Shown in pieces: positions 493 through 63,054 of a stretch of 64,000 nucleotides of DNA. A model generated the notes under the pieces. That model worked only from the letters and a program-made list of their open reading frames with translations. It was not told the DNA's origin and searched no databases. The translations under genes were made by a program, and so were the position numbers. This stretch comes from Desulfobacterales bacterium (GTDB lineage Bacteria; Desulfobacterota; Desulfobacteria; Desulfobacterales; JAAELO01). The DNA lies in NCBI GenBank assembly GCA_024226555.1, contig JAAELO010000214.1, positions 1-64,000 on the forward strand, written 5' to 3'. Every line of letters begins with the position of its first letter. Within the stretch, counting starts at the first letter, position 1.

Positions 493-1875
493 CTATTTGT
501 CTATAGCTGCTTCAATAAATCTTAAATCTGCGAACTCTTCCACATCAATCATAACTCCGATCCCCATCTCTTCAACCATATATCTTTGCATTGTATCGAG
601 ATCCTCAAGAGCTGGGTACAGGTTATTCATTGTGATACCCTCTGGGTCAGAAAGCACTTTCTGAAGCACTTCTGTGGTAAGTCCTATTTTTTTCTCAGGA
701 TCAAGAAACGCAACTGCAATCTCTGCAGCCTGCTCTTTATTACTTTCAACATACATCCCACAATGAACGAGAAGTTTTGTAAACTCGTACACTGCATCAG
801 GAAATTCCTCTATGAACTCATCACGGAATGAAGCTACACAACAAGGGTGATCTTTCCACATATTAGAGGTTACAAAATCGAGTTCAGCAATATTTTTAGC
901 TATGGCATTAGATGCTATGGGTTCAGCAACAACAAAACCGGCAACATCATCATTCTCTTTCATAATCATTGGCATTTTGATAGGTGGAACAACTTCAAAA
1001 CGAACATCTATTGCTTTTTTCCCAGGAACTCCAGGTCTTAAACCTAATGAAGTAAGATACCTGTGAGCCATGATATTGTGTATAGACATTTTGTGAGGGA
1101 TATTCACTACTTTATATTTGTAGAAACTTTTTAAGTTATCATAAAGGGCTGCTGTATAATTAACATTTCTAACAAAACTGGAACCATTTCTATGGGCTAA
1201 TGCAACAAGTTTGATTGGAGTATCAAAAGCGAAAAGGTCCATTGCGATTGGTGCAAGAACAAAAGCACCATCGACTTCGCCCTTTTCCAGAACTTCCTGC
1301 AGAGGGTTCCAACCTGGCATTCTTTGTGTTTCAAGTTCAAAATGCTCAGGATTTAATTCACCAGCTTCAATGAGGTGCTTCATAATACCAAGGGCAAGGT
1401 GGTCCGTAATCTGTATATGAGCTATTTTTAAGACAACTTTTCCATCTCGAATCTCTCTCTCTCTTGGCTTAACTTCTTCATCACCAGAAGGTTTTACATC
1501 AAATACTTCGTGGATTTTCAGAGCTATTTCAACATCATCAAAGGGTTTTGCAATATGGTTATTTCCACCATTTACACGCACTTTTTCCTGCTGAGATTTA
1601 TCTCCCTGAGCTGTTGCCATAATGAAAGGGATCATCTTAAAACGTTCATCCCTTCTTATCCACTGCAATAGCTCCATACCATCCATATTGGGCATATTCC
1701 AATCACTTATGACGATATCTATTGGATTTTCTTCGAGCTTTTTAATTCCGTCTTTCCCATCAACCGCCAATACAAAATTTTCATACCCGGCTTTGGTCAG
1801 CATCTGCTTAAACATGAGACGCATGGTTCCGGAATCGTCTACGATAAGTATATTTAATTTCTTATCATGGGACAT
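493..1875 (-). CDS. Response-regulator receiver domain fused to NMT1/NrtA-like ligand-binding domain
   Basis: Residues about 7-125 form a CheY-type receiver with acidic D13-D14, phospho-acceptor D58 in SDWNMP, T88 and K110. Residues about 148-460 match the NMT1/NrtA/SsuA-type substrate-binding fold. That part aligns along its length with the separate protein encoded at 2051-2989, sharing for example DGAFVLAPxAMDL, SxHN, VAEPI and HPCC. There is no signal peptide, so the binding domain should be cytoplasmic, unlike the usual periplasmic ABC-binding proteins. The start is supported by GGAGT 8 nt upstream. It is the third gene of a minus-strand group with cheY (3077) and the unfused ligand-binding gene (2051), although a terminator-like hairpin lies between. 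A phosphorylation-coupled sensor of a small intracellular ligand is an inference. Confidence 0.85.
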   Translation of the reverse strand: MSHDKKLNILIVDDSGTMRLMFKQMLTKAGYENFVLAVDGKDGIKKLEENPIDIVISDWNMPNMDGMELLQWIRRDERFKMIPFIMATAQGDKSQQEKVRVNGGNNHIAKPFDDVEIALKIHEVFDVKPSGDEEVKPREREIRDGKVVLKIAHIQITDHLALGIMKHLIEAGELNPEHFELETQRMPGWNPLQEVLEKGEVDGAFVLAPIAMDLFAFDTPIKLVALAHRNGSSFVRNVNYTAALYDNLKSFYKYKVVNIPHKMSIHNIMAHRYLTSLGLRPGVPGKKAIDVRFEVVPPIKMPMIMKENDDVAGFVVAEPIASNAIAKNIAELDFVTSNMWKDHPCCVASFRDEFIEEFPDAVYEFTKLLVHCGMYVESNKEQAAEIAVAFLDPEKKIGLTTEVLQKVLSDPEGITMNNLYPALEDLDTMQRYMVEEMGIGVMIDVEEFADLRFIEAAIDK

Positions 1876-2020
1876 CTCAGTACTCCTATAAAAATAATTA
1901 TGATTTTAATTAGCTTAAATGAAACTTTCTACACGAATTTGAAATTCATTCGCAATCAATAGATTGGAGACTTATCTTTAATAAAACTCAAGATCGTCAC
2001 GTAATCTTATTTAAATTTTC

Positions 2021-2047
2021 AAAAAGCCCATTATCTAAAGGGCTATT
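2021..2047 (-). terminator. Probable terminator after the ligand-binding gene
   Basis: Read on the minus strand, AGCCC and GGGCT pair (2040-2044 with 2025-2029) and are followed by a T5 run, only 4 bases past the stop codon at 2051. The 5-bp stem is short, so it may only reduce read-through into the gene at 493-1875. Confidence 0.55.
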
Positions 2048-2050
2048 ATT

Positions 2051-2989
2051 TTATTTTGCACCTGCTGCTTCTGCAAATCTAGTATCTACGAAATGAGCAA
2101 GATCTATTTTGGTTTTCATTATCTTCATATTATCACACATGTAGTTCTGTATGGCTTCAAGTCCTTCAACAACAGGGTATAATTCTCCGGTTGAGATACG
2201 ATCTGGGGGGTCAGATAGAACTTTCTTCATTACTTCCTCATCCTGCCCTAGAAAAGCTGCTCCAACTTTTGCAGCCTCAGCAGGTTTTTCCTCAATGAAC
2301 AATCCTGACTTAACAAGACTTGATGTAATCTCATGAATTGCATCAGCGTGATTATTAATAACTTCATCTCTCACAACAAAAACACAACATGGGTGATTTG
2401 GCCATAGGTCTTTAGTTAGGCAGATCTCTTCACCAAACCCAGATGCTATTGCCTGCGTTCCAATTGGTTCCGCAACAATGAAGCCACCAATTTCGCCCTC
2501 TTCGTCATACTGAACTGCTTCTGGCATCATACTTGGAGCCATGACTTCAAGAAAAACATCGGCTTCAGGGTCATTGGTTGTTCCAGGTTTTAAACCAACC
2601 TCTGCAAGTAATTTGTGAAAAAGCATATTATGAACTGATAGCTGATATGGAATTAAAACAACTTTCCCTTTAAAATCTTTAAGATTTTTTATGTTTGCTG
2701 TTTTATTTTTAACAAGAACACTTCCTGATTTATGTGTAAATAAAATCAGTTTCATTCCTACACCAGACTTATATAAATCCATGGCTGTTGGTGCGAGTAC
2801 AAAAGCCCCGTCAATACTTCCTTCTGCCAGAGCATCAGCAACTTCGTTCCAACCATATTTCAAAACAGGCTCAAGGGTACAATGCTGGAAAGTTTCCTCT
2901 CCTTTTTGTAGCTTATCATTTGTAACCCCAAGAATCAGGTGATCTGAAATTTTAAGATGTCCTATTTTGATAACTTGCTTATCAGCCAT
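2051..2989 (-). CDS. Cytoplasmic NMT1/NrtA-like ligand-binding protein
   Basis: The 312-residue protein has the fold pattern of NMT1/NrtA/TauA-type substrate-binding proteins: IGHLKISDHLILG at the start, DGAFVLAPTAMDL near residue 60, GKVVLIPYQLSVHN near 110 and HPCC near 200. It lacks a signal peptide or lipobox (it starts MADKQVIKIGHL), so it should act inside the cell rather than feed an ABC importer, and no permease or ATPase gene is near. It is close to the C-terminal domain of the receiver fusion at 493-1875 and lies just after cheY. AGGAGG 6 nt before the ATG fixes the start. The ligand is unknown. A thiamine-precursor or nitrate role cannot be inferred from this sequence. Confidence 0.8.
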   Translation of the reverse strand: MADKQVIKIGHLKISDHLILGVTNDKLQKGEETFQHCTLEPVLKYGWNEVADALAEGSIDGAFVLAPTAMDLYKSGVGMKLILFTHKSGSVLVKNKTANIKNLKDFKGKVVLIPYQLSVHNMLFHKLLAEVGLKPGTTNDPEADVFLEVMAPSMMPEAVQYDEEGEIGGFIVAEPIGTQAIASGFGEEICLTKDLWPNHPCCVFVVRDEVINNHADAIHEITSSLVKSGLFIEEKPAEAAKVGAAFLGQDEEVMKKVLSDPPDRISTGELYPVVEGLEAIQNYMCDNMKIMKTKIDLAHFVDTRFAEAAGAK

Positions 2990-57254: not shown

Positions 57255-58700
57255 TTATTTTCGAATAATATTAAAATTGTTATTTTTCAAAATATTTATA
57301 ATGCTGCTTTTACCCATAAAGTGTTCTACCCCAAGAACAACGAAACAATCTCCATTTTTTTTTAAATATGGTTTTATCTTATCAGCTATGGATGAGTTTA
57401 TATAACTGTAATCATCTCTGTATAATTTATTATATTTAATTTTAGCTTTTTTTATCTTAAATATTATATCTTCCATCTCAGTTAAATCACCACAATTCCA
57501 GAAGTCCAGAAGCAGTTCTTTATCCGACTGTTTATGATTGAGTGAATTAAGAGTGTTTTTTAGGAGCTGCTTCCCGTCATATCTCATTATTTGGTTTATA
57601 TAGTCTGATGCGGTATAGAGTTCGGATATCTGTTTTTTGCCACTTCTCCTTAAAAAATATTTGGTAGCGCTATAACTATCGGAATAACCATTTCTTCTCA
57701 TATCCACCTGGGATAGATTAATAGATAGAAGCCAGGGTTTGAATCTTCTAAAGGAAGAAACTGGTAAACCGTATGATTTGACACTTTTTGTAAGCATTTT
57801 ATAAAGATCTTGTGAAATATAATCCTTAATACTTTTTTTACCCTTTATTCTACCTCGTAAAAAATACTTTTGTAGTTCCTCTGAATTCTCAGGAGATCTG
57901 TTCAAATCACATACAAAATATTTTGATTTTTCAAATGCCATTTCAATTTCATTTTTAAATGGATAAAGATCCTTTCTACCAAAAGGAAGCGCTCCAAGAA
58001 TATACACAGAATTCGTATCCCCCTTTACCTCCCAGAAAACTCTTTTAAAGGTATCAAGGCAATACGCTTCACTCATTTTTTCAGTAATTTTTACAAATCC
58101 GATATTTTTTAAGGTTCTATTATTTTCAATATTTTTAAATCTTGAGACCCACAACTTTTCATTTTTTAACAATGTATTGTTAAAAACTGATTTAATATCC
58201 TTTTCATTTTTTTTCATGTAAAAAGGTGTTGACCAGAATGCTAATTTGATTAAGTTGTTATTCGATTTGGTAATATACTCTTTAAAGAGATAGCTTTTAT
58301 TATCTTTTTTAATCTTAAATACCCATACAATCGTATCTGTTTTTTCACTGTACTTTGCACTTAATATTTTTCTTTTTCCCTCATTTATAATGATACTATG
58401 AAGGGATCTAAAGTATTTCATAACGCTTATATCAGTTTTTTCAATAAGAGCTCTTACAAAAATTTTCTGATTCTTTTTCATACCAAAAAAAAGTGGTAAT
58501 TCATCTTTTTTGCTATTCTTTGGGAAATATTTAATGAACATGTCGTGACTGTTTTGTCTTGTGGTTGAAAGACTCCATATTTCCGGAAATTCAACCTTTA
58601 TTCCAATACTATTATTACTATATGTTTTATCCGTTTTCAGGTTGTGGAAACAACCTGTACATAATAACAAAATCAAAAGAGTTGGTTTTAAATGTTTCAA
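57255..58700 (-). CDS. TraB/GumN-like lipoprotein with an N-terminal PsbP/DcrB-like domain
   Basis: The 481-residue protein has a lipobox (LCTGC, C17), an N-terminal beta domain (about 25-190) starting NSIGIKVEFPEIWSLS (PsbP/DcrB-like) and a C-terminal TraB/GumN domain (about 225-480). The second conserved GxxH is kept as LGVEHFMGKSSI. The first is changed from the usual GT-H to ILGALPFG, losing its histidine. TraB/GumN proteins are putative metal-binding proteases. If this histidine is required, this copy is inactive or altered. An alpha/beta hydrolase follows immediately. Confidence 0.7.
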   Translation of the reverse strand: MKHLKPTLLILLLCTGCFHNLKTDKTYSNNSIGIKVEFPEIWSLSTTRQNSHDMFIKYFPKNSKKDELPLFFGMKKNQKIFVRALIEKTDISVMKYFRSLHSIIINEGKRKILSAKYSEKTDTIVWVFKIKKDNKSYLFKEYITKSNNNLIKLAFWSTPFYMKKNEKDIKSVFNNTLLKNEKLWVSRFKNIENNRTLKNIGFVKITEKMSEAYCLDTFKRVFWEVKGDTNSVYILGALPFGRKDLYPFKNEIEMAFEKSKYFVCDLNRSPENSEELQKYFLRGRIKGKKSIKDYISQDLYKMLTKSVKSYGLPVSSFRRFKPWLLSINLSQVDMRRNGYSDSYSATKYFLRRSGKKQISELYTASDYINQIMRYDGKQLLKNTLNSLNHKQSDKELLLDFWNCGDLTEMEDIIFKIKKAKIKYNKLYRDDYSYINSSIADKIKPYLKKNGDCFVVLGVEHFMGKSSIINILKNNNFNIIRK

Positions 58701-58911: not shown

Positions 58912-60732
58912 TTGAAAGAGATAATTAAATTGTTAAAAAACAAACCTGTAATCGAATCTCAAATCTCAAATATTGAGTCAAGATGCACATCTTGTAATAA
59001 TTGCGTAAAAGATTGTGACTTTCTGGCAAATTATGGAAATCCTGGTGAAATAGCTAAATTTTATAATGAGGACAAAAAGGGCTGTTTTGAGATTGCTTAT
59101 AAATGTAGTTTATGCTCCCTATGTATTGCGAGGTGCCCTGAAGAATTAGACCCTTCTTCCATGTTTCTGTCAATGAGGCGGGAAGCTGTTAAAGATGGTT
59201 ATGATCTTAAGAGATATTCAGGTATTTTAAATTATGAGAAAAAGGGTTATTCAAAAAAATACTCTTTCTATTTGATTCCCGATGGTTGCGATACTATTTT
59301 TTTCCCAGGTTGCTCACTACCAGGAACAAGACCTGAAACAACAAAAAAAACTATAGAATCTTTGCTAAAGAGAGATTCAAAGACCGGTATCGTCCTATCT
59401 TGCTGCACAAAACCATCCCATGATCTTGGAAGAGAAAATTTTTTTCATTCAGTTTTTAATGAAATGAAAGAATACTTAATAGGGCAAGGTGTGAAAAATG
59501 TAATTGTTGCATGCCCAAACTGTTACAAAATATTCAGTGATTATGCAAAAGAGTTTAATACAAAAACAGTCTATGAGGTTCTTTCTGAATCACCTAAGTT
59601 GCATGATTTAAATGGTAAAGTCTCTATCCATGATTCCTGTGTGGTAAGATTTGAAAATAGGATTCAAAGTTCGGTAAGGGAGTTGACAGAAAATTTAGGA
59701 TTATCAACATTTGAGATGATCCATTCAAAAAAGAACACGTTCTGTTGTGGTGAGGGTGGATCTGTCGGATTTACCGAGCCTTCTTTAGTTAACAGCTGGA
59801 TTAATAAAAGAGCCAGGGAAGCAGAGAATCAGAAAGTTGTTACATATTGTTCAGGGTGTTCAAACATGCTTTCTGGCAAAGTTGATACTGTTCATATTCT
59901 TGATCTGGTTTCAAGTCCCGAAAAAGCAATCAAAGGAAATTTAAAAATATCTAAAGCTCCTTTTACCTATCTAAACAGGCTTTCTTTAAAAAAGAGCCTA
60001 AAAAAAACAAATAAGGATAATATTCGTCAAAATATTGATTTAAAAGAAAAAGGCAAGGGTAGTTTGTCAGCAAGATTTATTGTTTTATCATTAATCATTG
60101 CAGCAATCATAGGAATGAGGGTTTCCGGTTTATCTGATTACCTTGATCAGGATAAACTAAGAGATTTAATAGCTACATATGGAAATCTTGCACCACTACT
60201 GTTTATGATGATTTATGCAATTGCCCCATCTCTTTTCCTGCCAGGTCTCCCAATAACCATTGTCGGGGGTATTTTATTCGGTCCCGTTTGGGGAGTTGTA
60301 TACTCTATAACAGGGGCAACAACAGGGGCTGGGATCGCCTTTTTAATTTCAAGGTATGTCTCTGGTAGCTTCATTGAAGCAAAACTTGATAGTTCAAAAT
60401 GGGATAAGCTAAACGATAGTGTCGAAAAACAGGGGTGGAAAATTGTAGCAATTACCAGGCTGATCCCCCTTTTTCCTTTCAATCTCTTAAACTATGCTTT
60501 TGGGCTTACGAAGATAAAGTTTTCACATTATATTGTTTCAACATTTATTTTTATGCTTCCAGCATGTATCTCATTAATTGTTTTCTCAAGCTCGTTTCTC
60601 GATCTCTTAAAAGGTAACATCACAATTGAGTTTACCATTGGCCTGTTGCTTATGATTCAGGTTTCATTGTTTCCGGTTATTTACAGGAAATTCAGAAAAA
60701 AGGAAATCTCAATTGAAAAGGAAAGGGTTTAA
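58912..60732 (+). CDS. Fusion of a GlpC/HdrD-like Fe-S (CCG) domain to a VTT (TVP38/DedA) membrane domain
   Basis: The 606-residue protein has two ferredoxin-type clusters (C25, C28, C31, C35 and C65, C68, C71, C75), then a CCG-type module with two repeats. The first repeat has C134, C164-C165, C201 and C204; the second has C243, C278-C279, C313 and C316. A basic linker follows, and residues about 385-600 form a VTT/DedA domain with five or six spans (FLPGLPITIVGGILFGP, ITRLIPLFPFNLLNYAFGL). CCG/ferredoxin proteins usually act with flavin or heme oxidoreductases, and VTT proteins act in lipid scrambling or transport. The start is TTG, as no ATG fits. A secreted rhodanese gene follows after 2 bases. 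Confidence 0.85.
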   Translation: MKEIIKLLKNKPVIESQISNIESRCTSCNNCVKDCDFLANYGNPGEIAKFYNEDKKGCFEIAYKCSLCSLCIARCPEELDPSSMFLSMRREAVKDGYDLKRYSGILNYEKKGYSKKYSFYLIPDGCDTIFFPGCSLPGTRPETTKKTIESLLKRDSKTGIVLSCCTKPSHDLGRENFFHSVFNEMKEYLIGQGVKNVIVACPNCYKIFSDYAKEFNTKTVYEVLSESPKLHDLNGKVSIHDSCVVRFENRIQSSVRELTENLGLSTFEMIHSKKNTFCCGEGGSVGFTEPSLVNSWINKRAREAENQKVVTYCSGCSNMLSGKVDTVHILDLVSSPEKAIKGNLKISKAPFTYLNRLSLKKSLKKTNKDNIRQNIDLKEKGKGSLSARFIVLSLIIAAIIGMRVSGLSDYLDQDKLRDLIATYGNLAPLLFMMIYAIAPSLFLPGLPITIVGGILFGPVWGVVYSITGATTGAGIAFLISRYVSGSFIEAKLDSSKWDKLNDSVEKQGWKIVAITRLIPLFPFNLLNYAFGLTKIKFSHYIVSTFIFMLPACISLIVFSSSFLDLLKGNITIEFTIGLLLMIQVSLFPVIYRKFRKKEISIEKERV

Positions 60733-60734
60733 AA

Positions 60735-61979
60735 TTGAATTATTCTCTAAACAGAATAGCAATATCGTTAGTTCTTTTCACCTCACTTACTCTGGCAACC
60801 AATACTCTTTATGCTTCAGGCTATGATAAATACTTTGTAACATCCTCATGGCTAAAGAAAAATATAGATAAAAAAGGTCTTGTTATAATAGATGCAAGAG
60901 AGGGAGATGCATATAGTGATGGTCACATAAATGGATCTCGATCTCTGAAATGGAAACAGGTATCCGACATGACAAAACCTTTTGCCCATAGAGGATGGGG
61001 AACAGTAACAGATAAGAATCTTCTTGAAGGAGTTATATCAAAAACAGGGATTACAAAAAAATCTGAGATCATTATTTATGCAGATACCAAAAATGGTTGG
61101 GGAGAAGATGGTAGGATATACTGGACCTTTAGGATTGCAGGCCTTACAAATATAAGAATTTTAGACGGTGGAATTGATGGGTGGGAAAATTCTAAAGGAG
61201 ATATAAATGAAGATGTTGTCAATGTGCAAAGAAGTGATTTCAAATTAAAAAAACTATCCCTTAATAATTCTATTGATACAAATGATTTAATTAAAGATTA
61301 TAAAAATTATAAAATTTTAGATACAAGAACTTTAAATGAATATAAGGGAGCTCGTAAGTATGGAGAGAAAAGAGGTGGGCATCTCCCTGGTTCAACCCTT
61401 ATGCCTTTTAAATTTTTTTTAAACAATGGTTACGTTAAATCTGAAAAAGAACTTATCAATATCATTTCATCAAAAGGTATTACCAAAAAGGATAACATTG
61501 TTACTTACTGTACAGCAGGTATCAGATCGGCCTATGTGCAGGTTGTTCTTGAGATGCTTGGGTACAAAATTAAAAACTACGATGAATCTTTTTATATATG
61601 GGCAACGGAGAAAGAAACAAAATTAGGCTTTGTTAAAGATGGTTTACCTTATAATTCTATTACAATGAAGCAATTTAATGATGATCTAAAGTCTTCTGAA
61701 AATTATATCCTGATTGATATTCAAAACAAAAATGATTTTGTTAAAGATCATTTTAACGATGCCATTGGAACTGATGCATATCCCGTAAAAAGCAAAAATG
61801 ATAAGATAAAGCTCGATAAAGCTCTGAACATTTTGAAAAGTTCTGAGAAAAATATTATTACAATAAGCCCAAAGAGTAATGATAGTGCAAGAAGAGCTTT
61901 TAACCACCTTAAAAGTAAAGGTATTAAACAAAACAGAATGTTTATACTTGACGGGCAAAGGAGCAGCTGGTTTTTTTAA
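60735..61979 (+). CDS. Secreted triple-rhodanese-domain protein
   Basis: The 414-residue protein has a signal peptide (AISLVLFTSLTLATNTLYAS) and three rhodanese-like domains. The first (about 35-155) has YADTKNGWG in place of the catalytic cysteine loop. The second (about 180-290) has the active loop CTAGIRS with C259. The third (about 310-414) is degenerate. It probably moves sulfur in the periplasm. It starts with TTG, 8 bases after GGAAAGGG, and immediately follows the Fe-S/VTT fusion, implying a joint sulfur or redox role (inference). Confidence 0.85.
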   Translation: MNYSLNRIAISLVLFTSLTLATNTLYASGYDKYFVTSSWLKKNIDKKGLVIIDAREGDAYSDGHINGSRSLKWKQVSDMTKPFAHRGWGTVTDKNLLEGVISKTGITKKSEIIIYADTKNGWGEDGRIYWTFRIAGLTNIRILDGGIDGWENSKGDINEDVVNVQRSDFKLKKLSLNNSIDTNDLIKDYKNYKILDTRTLNEYKGARKYGEKRGGHLPGSTLMPFKFFLNNGYVKSEKELINIISSKGITKKDNIVTYCTAGIRSAYVQVVLEMLGYKIKNYDESFYIWATEKETKLGFVKDGLPYNSITMKQFNDDLKSSENYILIDIQNKNDFVKDHFNDAIGTDAYPVKSKNDKIKLDKALNILKSSEKNIITISPKSNDSARRAFNHLKSKGIKQNRMFILDGQRSSWFF

Positions 61980-62008: not shown

Positions 62009-62239
62009 TTAATACAGAACATATTTAACAAGACTTTTCATATTTCCTTTCCAGGAACACCCCGTACATAATATTTTTGAGAAACTATAACCTGTTAAAT
62101 CGCAATTTGATTCTTTAGTTGGAACCGGTTTTTTTTGATAATTCACATGGAAGTAGATATTTTCATTATCATCTGATTTGATATATAACCTGTGTAGTCC
62201 GCATTGTGGACATAGGAGATACTTATCTAATTTGGACAT
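62009..62239 (-). CDS. Small zinc-ribbon-like protein
   Basis: The 76-residue protein has CPQCG (C10/C13) and CTGC (C58/C61) pairs that can bind one zinc, with GYSFSKILCTGCSWKGNM near the end. No family is recognised. It converges with the rhodanese gene. Confidence 0.6.
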   Translation of the reverse strand: MSKLDKYLLCPQCGLHRLYIKSDDNENIYFHVNYQKKPVPTKESNCDLTGYSFSKILCTGCSWKGNMKSLVKYVLY

Positions 62240-62320
62240 AATAGGTCTTAATAATCCTTAATATTTAATGTGAAGCAGCTTGTTTCTAACGATAATATAA
62301 CCTAAATTCTTTTCAGGCAA

Positions 62321-62467: not shown

Positions 62468-63054
62468 TTAAACTGACTTAACCAGCGTACTAACCCACTT
62501 GTTTATATCAGTACTATTTCTAAAAGGATCTCCATCTACTTTCAGGGATGAACCCGCAAGAGATCCATTCTTTGAAGATATTAACTCTTCTATTTGATCT
62601 ACAGCACTGCAAAAATACTTGTAAGAACTATCACCACATCCGAACACCCCAATTTTTTTATTTATAAACTGATATTGACCGATTTCATTATAAAAAGGTT
62701 TAAAACCAGATTGCATTTCGAATTCATCTTCACCAAAAGACCATGTGGAACAACCAAAAACCATCAGGTCATAATCTTTATCCAGTTCATTTATTTCAGT
62801 ATTTAAAACATTTCTTTTTGTAACTTTGAAACCGTTTTTCTTAAGGGAATCTCTAATAACTGATCTTTTTGCGAAACACATCGTTATAACAAAAATAAAA
62901 CTGTAGTAAAATCAACCCGTTGTTTTTTGTTATGCCTTGTTTTTCATCAAAAATTCTAATTATTAGAGGTTCTCTTAAGAGATTTTTTAATTATATCTGC
63001 AGTATTTTTTGTATTTCCGTTTGTTGAACCATATACGATTAGAGCATTAGCCAT
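62468..63054 (-). pseudogene. Flavodoxin gene disrupted by a MITE-like element
   Basis: The start (MANALIVYGSTNGNTKNTAD) has a flavodoxin phosphate loop GSTNGNTK and a strong AAAGGAGG upstream. The rest (NEIDK-like core FGCSTWSFGEDEFEMQ, FGCGDSSYKYF, DQIEELI) continues after an insertion at 62845-62974. Total length 587 bases minus the 130-base element and one TTAA leaves 453 bases, exactly 151 codons, and the join reads SLKKNGFKV in frame. As it stands the upstream part stops after 34 residues (ending KRTSNN), so the electron carrier is knocked out here. Confidence 0.9.
62845..62974. mobile_element. MITE-like element inserted in flavodoxin
   Basis: The 130-bp copy, GGGAATCTCTAATAACTG to AATTATTAGAGGTTCTC, is flanked by perfect TTAA duplications (62841-62844 and 62975-62978). 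It sits in the coding sequence of a recognisable flavodoxin, which proves the family has moved by a mechanism that duplicates 4 bases. Confidence 0.93.

Follow-up and report, generated by a model that had tools for sequence, protein, structure and literature searches.

The closest described relatives of the locus analysed here combine iron-sulfur clusters with CCG motifs. Hdr enzymes (HdrB/HdrC, HdrD) have a ferredoxin dicluster and two complete CCG motifs on a common fold, a link to CoM/CoB, and a membrane part of the cytochrome b kind, such as HdrE. The mycobacterial ETF:menaquinone oxidoreductase, EtfD, carries a membrane-anchored dicluster and a double CCG in a single chain, with a heme-b domain as its membrane part. 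Its CCG sites are non-catalytic, with Thr539 in place of a Cys and His583 capping cluster D2 (PMC13083937). In proteins of the NF045663 type (pyridine nucleotide-disulfide oxidoreductase/dicluster-binding protein), a flavin/NAD-binding half is joined to the same Fe-S/CCG half. On the membrane side, the DedA subfamily of YdjX (COG0398) has been proposed to act as lipid scramblases (PMC10127716), and the same paper, a 2023 survey of the DedA family, lists rhodanese, PAP2 and pyridine-nucleotide-disulfide oxidoreductase domains as the only fusion partners. Escherichia coli K-12 encodes ydjX (VTT), ydjY, ydjZ (VTT), ynjA-D and ynjE (a three-domain rhodanese) side by side, and both units, ydjXYZ-ynjABCD and ynjE, are FNR-activated (PMC3688515). 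Rhodanese selenoproteins, SaoL and the SAO (Sec-assisted organometallic) system are also already known (review, PMC13188914).

We analysed a stretch of 64,000 nucleotides from a sulfate-reducing Desulfobacterales bacterium (contig JAAELO010000214.1, positions 1 to 64,000; hereafter the window), in which an Fe-S/CCG protein is fused to a VTT domain and followed by a rhodanese gene. The features of the pair are as follows.

58912-60732, plus strand: Fe-S/CCG-VTT fusion CDS, 606 aa, with ferredoxin dicluster, double CCG and VTT (DedA)
58981-59151, plus strand: 4Fe-4S dicluster domain, aa 24-80 (Pfam Fer4_17; conserved cysteines)
59287-59541, plus strand: CCG module 1, about aa 126-210 (motif conservation; HdrB/EtfD fold)
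59620-59871, plus strand: CCG module 2, aa 237-320 (Pfam CCG; motif conservation)
60064-60726, plus strand: membrane region with VTT/DedA, aa 385-605 (Pfam VTT core aa 443-559; YdjX HMM match)
60735-61979, plus strand: putative exported rhodanese CDS, 414 aa, TTG start, three Pfam Rhodanese stretches
60735-60818, plus strand: signal-peptide-like N-terminus of the rhodanese, about aa 1-28, with a hydrophobic segment after R7
60843-61190, plus strand: rhodanese domain 1, aa 37-152, without catalytic Cys
61263-61634, plus strand: rhodanese domain 2, about aa 177-300, with the catalytic loop C259-TAGIRS at 61509-61529
61635-61976, plus strand: rhodanese domain 3, aa 301-414, without Cys

The two genes are separated by 2 bases, and each is present in a single copy in the window genome, which also bears dsrA. 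An earlier sequence-only reading had proposed both the fusion and its rhodanese neighbor, and the two open reading frames and their Pfam domains were found where it had placed them. The fusion ORF begins with TTG (starting from a second possible TTG, at 58930, the protein would be 6 aa shorter) and contains 0 internal stops. This ORF, together with 75 fused homologs, also answers the concern that a stop codon or frameshift might separate the two halves, and the homologs rule out a sequencing, frameshift or assembly artefact. Eight cysteines form the ferredoxin set (C25, 28, 31, 35; C65, 68, 71, 75), and both CCG motifs are complete (C134, C164, C165, C201, C204; C243, C278, C279, C313, C316), with Pfam CCG matching in two stretches, the better of them 237-320. 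Each of these 18 cluster cysteines (8 ferredoxin and 10 CCG) is kept in at least 95% of 85 homologs. Two complete CCG motifs are found in 84 of the 85, the sole exception, L086, being a frameshifted sequence. The segments flanking the membrane helices are positive (8 K+R versus 3 D+E before the first helix, 7 versus 3 after the last), which by the positive-inside rule suggests that the Fe-S part is cytoplasmic.

The fold of the Fe-S part was compared using an AlphaFold model of the fusion (pLDDT 88). The best match for the whole Fe-S part is EtfD (9ojn; Z 19, 3.4 A over 340 aa), and HdrB structures (5odc/7bkb/8rvy) match with Z 16-17 and an rmsd of 2.9-3.1 over about 215 aa. The second comparison with the PDB mainly covered residues 123-377 of the fusion. 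In the alignment to EtfD, the places of Thr539 and His583 are taken by Cys165 and Asn203. The hallmarks of EtfD are thus absent from the fusion, which has C165 instead of Thr and CPNC instead of CPHC, and Cys165 is invariant among the fusion homologs. Since all of the Hdr CCG cysteines are kept, the Hdr-type set at the EtfD Thr539/His583 places included, and the inactivating changes of EtfD are absent, the two CCG modules appear by sequence to carry an Hdr-type catalytic ligand set, and noncubane clusters are predicted for both. Unlike Hdr and EtfD, the fusion has VTT as its membrane part.

The sequence-only reading had known of no standard enzyme with this architecture, and as far as we searched this holds. 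The best NCBIfam model, NF045663, scores 210.3 bits, well under its cut-off of 530, and its match (model positions 304-670 of 759) covers the Fe-S/CCG part of the fusion only. The two Fe-S/CCG halves are homologous, at about 30% identity, whereas the fusion lacks the flavin half and has VTT instead. NCBIfam also indicates a wider kinship to GlcF, LdhH and TmcB. No such fusion is named in the DedA survey, and no published description of the architecture was found in open papers and family libraries. A parallel in the survey, the fusion of VTT to pyridine nucleotide disulfide oxidoreductases, likewise couples VTT to a disulfide-reductase module, but there the module is flavin-based, and in the window it is of the Fe-S/CCG type.

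The VTT domain itself is well supported by Pfam (88 bits against a cut-off of 33.9). An HMM of the fusion VTT matched YdjX at 1.7e-41 and YdjZ at 2.3e-27, these being the only E. coli DedA proteins compared, and the domain is classed by sequence as YdjX-like, of the COG0398 subfamily. No invariant His or Cys was found in the VTT part across the fusion homologs, so there are no evident heme ligands in it. A second VTT-like domain, VTT2, occurs in Geobacter-type homologs. It was considered as a YdjZ equivalent and rejected, as the HMM gave no match.

The rhodanese was described in the sequence-only reading as a triple protein with one intact loop, and the domain analysis agrees: C259, in the CTAGIRS loop of domain 2, is the lone cysteine of the whole protein. 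The tandem fold with the catalytic Cys in its second domain is that of thiosulfate/mercaptopyruvate sulfurtransferases, and a structure model (pLDDT 78) matches thiosulfate sulfurtransferases, with Z 30 to CysA3. We regard the protein, by its sequence, as a putative exported sulfurtransferase. Domain 3 is approximately 35% identical in alignment to proteins of the L067 and L073 loci. It resembles free-standing exported rhodanese-like proteins of ~140 aa that adjoin Fe-S/VTT genes, in Geobacteraceae the fusion itself, and this is further evidence for a linkage between rhodanese and fusion. A YnjE-type triple rhodanese was rejected, since the catalytic Cys lies in domain 2 rather than domain 3 and the extra domain follows the tandem pair. 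ExtH, the rhodanese of the Ext selenite/tellurite operon, is only weakly similar (NF040901, 47.7 bits against a cut-off of 200).

Homologs of the fusion are not confined to this genome. A species-genome collection contained 164 stretches encoding a relative, of which 80 were kept. The set of 85 homologs consists of the kept collection loci and six loci from the window organism's order. Seventy-five are fused, four of them with VTT first, and 10 have the Fe-S part alone. The fused forms occur in Thermodesulfobacteriota and Nitrospirota, nearly all in other genomes, a recurrence that rules out a single odd gene in one genome. Isolates carrying homologs include Malonomonas rubra, Desulfuromusa kysingii, Oryzomonas japonica and Desulfoluna species, and homologs are also found in Nitrospirota MAGs. 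Among 297 sampled genomes of the phylum, 34 have a closely related VTT domain, fused in about 11 as judged by open-frame length and mostly free-standing in the rest. The four loci with VTT before Fe-S/CCG (L103, L104, L105, L107) group together in the tree (support 99/95), and the unfused rows are scattered, in a tree whose root is unreliable, with outgroups on very long branches. L090 (8001-9626), a fused homolog from the Desulfuromonas MAG AUK168, has two in-frame TAG codons, one of them at a conserved Tyr position.

The same parts also occur as separate genes. Four of 12 free-standing VTT genes adjoin a separate Fe-S/CCG gene (L126, L130, L132, L137). L132 and L137 both run glycosyltransferase, glycosyltransferase, Fe-S/CCG, VTT, rhodanese, with the last three genes overlapping or nearly so; the window shows the same order of these three, with Fe-S and VTT joined into one gene. 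Two other free-standing VTT genes lie beside a pyridine-nucleotide disulfide oxidoreductase (L134 by NCBIfam, L129 by sequence), and one genome encodes both the Fe-S fusion and a 714-aa VTT-Pyr_redox fusion. Taken with the flavin-Fe-S proteins of the NF045663 type, these joins indicate that the VTT, Fe-S/CCG and flavin oxidoreductase parts have been fused in all three pairings. The Fe-S/CCG-VTT system is real, widespread and conserved, with an unusual architecture, and its function is something that we infer. In L126, a 761-aa protein (686-2968, minus strand) beside the split Fe-S and VTT genes matches radical SAM models over its N-terminal half and arsenite methyltransferase models over its C-terminal half.

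Three kinds of neighborhood recur around the homologs. One contains a YdjY-domain protein, MerB-like SaoL, a second VTT-like domain (often fused), SelD and YedF. Another contains glycosyltransferases, a tandem rhodanese and an exported protein of ~285 aa, which matched no family and which we read as a beta-barrel. The third contains the arsenosugar protein ArsS, glycosyltransferases TIGR04282/TIGR04283, a DoxX-like protein and a rhodanese. A rhodanese lies in the operon at 17 of 69 fused loci against 23 of 469 background genes (Fisher p 9e-7), and YdjY at 19 of 69 against 1 of 469 (Fisher p 2e-17), both p values being inflated by genome relatedness. One or the other is present at 31 of the 69, and more than half have neither, some contigs ending early. 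All 34 rhodaneses within two genes of a homolog look exported, but so do 19 of the 21 other rhodaneses in the same loci, and export alone is therefore not specific. In one Geobacteraceae operon (L067, 3389-9587), a UGA rhodanese, a rhodanese, the fusion, SaoL, YdjY and SelD stand in a row.

In four of the rhodaneses, the codon precisely at the catalytic Cys position is an in-frame TGA, and the domain continues beyond it (e.g., VLY-U-TMGIRSGF). Those of L078 and L082 adjoin the fusion, that of L100 adjoins an unfused Fe-S gene, and that of L067 lies two genes upstream of the fusion. A hairpin downstream is good in L100 and weaker in L078, L082 and L067. The window genome has a SelD with its own in-frame TGA, and the window rhodanese uses Cys. 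The sequence-only reading had suggested that the pair links membrane redox chemistry to periplasmic sulfur or selenium handling. For the family, this gains support from the exported rhodaneses, the four UGA codons and the SelD, YedF and SaoL neighbors; this support does not extend to the window pair, whose rhodanese uses Cys and in whose genome neither SaoL nor YdjY was found. The same search detects SaoL in the genomes of two relatives. Although SaoL beside some fused homologs recalls the SAO system, that comparison rests on SaoL, and membership of the window genome was rejected on its absence.

The E. coli genes offer another parallel. HMMs built from the fused VTT, from the YdjY-type neighbors and from the tandem rhodaneses match YdjX, YdjY and YnjE, respectively, and E. 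coli, too, keeps VTT proteins, YdjY (a neighbor of many fused homologs) and an exported three-domain rhodanese together. However, the ydjXYZ-ynjE stretch has no Fe-S/CCG gene, and the extra domain is N-terminal in YnjE and C-terminal in the window rhodanese. We therefore consider this a parallel and not an identity.

We propose, at a probability of roughly 45%, that the pair is a membrane-anchored Hdr-type reductase with an exported sulfurtransferase partner. Most likely, it would be a disulfide or persulfide reductase and a periplasmic sulfurtransferase that act on sulfane sulfur or on thiol adducts of selenium, arsenic or mercury. The proposal is grounded in the domain content, the complete ligand sets, the gene linkage and the conserved order of the split operon, and draws on a predicted Hdr/EtfD fold and a predicted export signal; the real cluster types, transport by VTT, its direction, the substrate and the electron donor of the proposed reductase are what we infer. 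The cytoplasmic N-terminal half would hold two cubane [4Fe-4S] clusters and, in its CCG modules, two Hdr-type noncubane clusters, which would cleave an S-S bond (or S-Se, S-As or S-Hg) one electron at a time. The YdjX-type VTT/DedA domain would anchor the reductase in the inner membrane and probably pass or present a sulfur-bearing substrate. In the periplasm, the rhodanese may load sulfane sulfur onto C259 and hand it to the VTT side; its Sec-bearing relatives perhaps handle selenium too. The CCG clusters would then reduce the persulfide, disulfide or thiol adduct in the cytoplasm, with electrons from a ferredoxin or flavoprotein. If this mechanism holds, it would give anaerobes a new way of taking up or neutralising compounds of sulfane sulfur, selenium, arsenic or mercury. 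Across many anaerobes the set turns up repeatedly, often with genes for selenium, arsenic and mercury beside it, a pattern that points to an undescribed handling of sulfur-like elements at the membrane.

A bolder version is an undescribed transmembrane system in which the COG0398 domain itself conducts sulfane sulfur, or a selenium- or metalloid-thiol adduct, from the exported rhodanese to the fused Hdr-type reductase. We hold this only tentatively and consider it somewhat unlikely. If true, it would give this DedA subfamily a role in redox-coupled transport and suggest a possible function for the E. coli ydjXYZ-ynjE genes. Through the repeated association with an Hdr-type reductase and with exported rhodaneses, some of them with selenocysteine, function becomes a testable question.

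Lipid scrambling, and not sulfur carriage, is what has been proposed for DedA proteins of this subfamily (PMC10127716), which speaks against our main proposal. A plain sulfur role leaves the glycosyltransferase and arsenosugar neighbors unaccounted for, and these neighbors are the reason for widening the proposed range beyond sulfur and selenium. They also bear on two alternatives. The fusion may serve metal(loid) detoxification, reducing or releasing mercury, selenium or arsenic thiol adducts at the membrane while the rhodanese provides it with sulfur or selenium or scavenges these for it. MerB-like SaoL, SelD, YedF, the radical SAM protein ArsS and arsenosugar glycosyltransferases as operon neighbors in relatives would fit, as would the fusion of related VTT domains to pyridine-nucleotide disulfide oxidoreductases, members of the mercuric reductase superfamily. 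We think it unlikely, given that SaoL was not found in the window genome, that the only metal(loid) gene beside the window pair is a ZIP-type transporter 1.3 kb downstream and that in many loci the partners are a rhodanese or glycosyltransferase only. VTT might instead act within a glycolipid or thio/arseno-sugar pathway as a lipid scramblase or flippase, with the Fe-S part and rhodanese carrying out redox and sulfur chemistry on the sugar or lipid being carried. Phospholipid scrambling has been proposed for the subfamily (PMC10127716), AglJ-like and CelA/PgaC-like glycosyltransferases directly precede the L132/L137 genes, and arsenosugar glycosyltransferases flank others. Yet the YdjY/SaoL/SelD contexts contain no glycosyltransferase and none lies beside the window pair, which makes this role quite improbable.

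The fold evidence could be taken to favor a simpler, EtfD-like function in which electrons pass from a cytosolic flavoprotein through the Fe-S/CCG part to the quinone pool, without disulfide chemistry and with the rhodanese as a bystander. EtfD is the best fold match across the whole Fe-S part, and the kinship to GlcF, LdhH and TmcB points the same way. Against this, VTT has no conserved His for heme, the non-catalytic substitutions of EtfD are absent from the fusion and exported rhodaneses recur beside it, the split operon included; we consider such an electron wire quite improbable as well. The membrane-anchored reductase with an exported sulfurtransferase remains our preferred reading.

Other genes near the window pair were also noted. 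The divergent neighbor of the fusion (57255-58700, minus strand) encodes a member of the TraB/PrgY/gumN family whose start resembles that of a lipoprotein. Downstream of the rhodanese, at about 62010-62250 (minus strand), lies a small ORF of about 76 aa; it has CPQC and CTGC pairs and resembles a zinc-ribbon protein. A flavodoxin gene at 62468-63054 (minus strand) seems broken: its N-terminal part (MANALIVYGSTNGNTKNTADII...) runs from 63054 in another frame and stops, and the remainder is the ORF 62468-62881.
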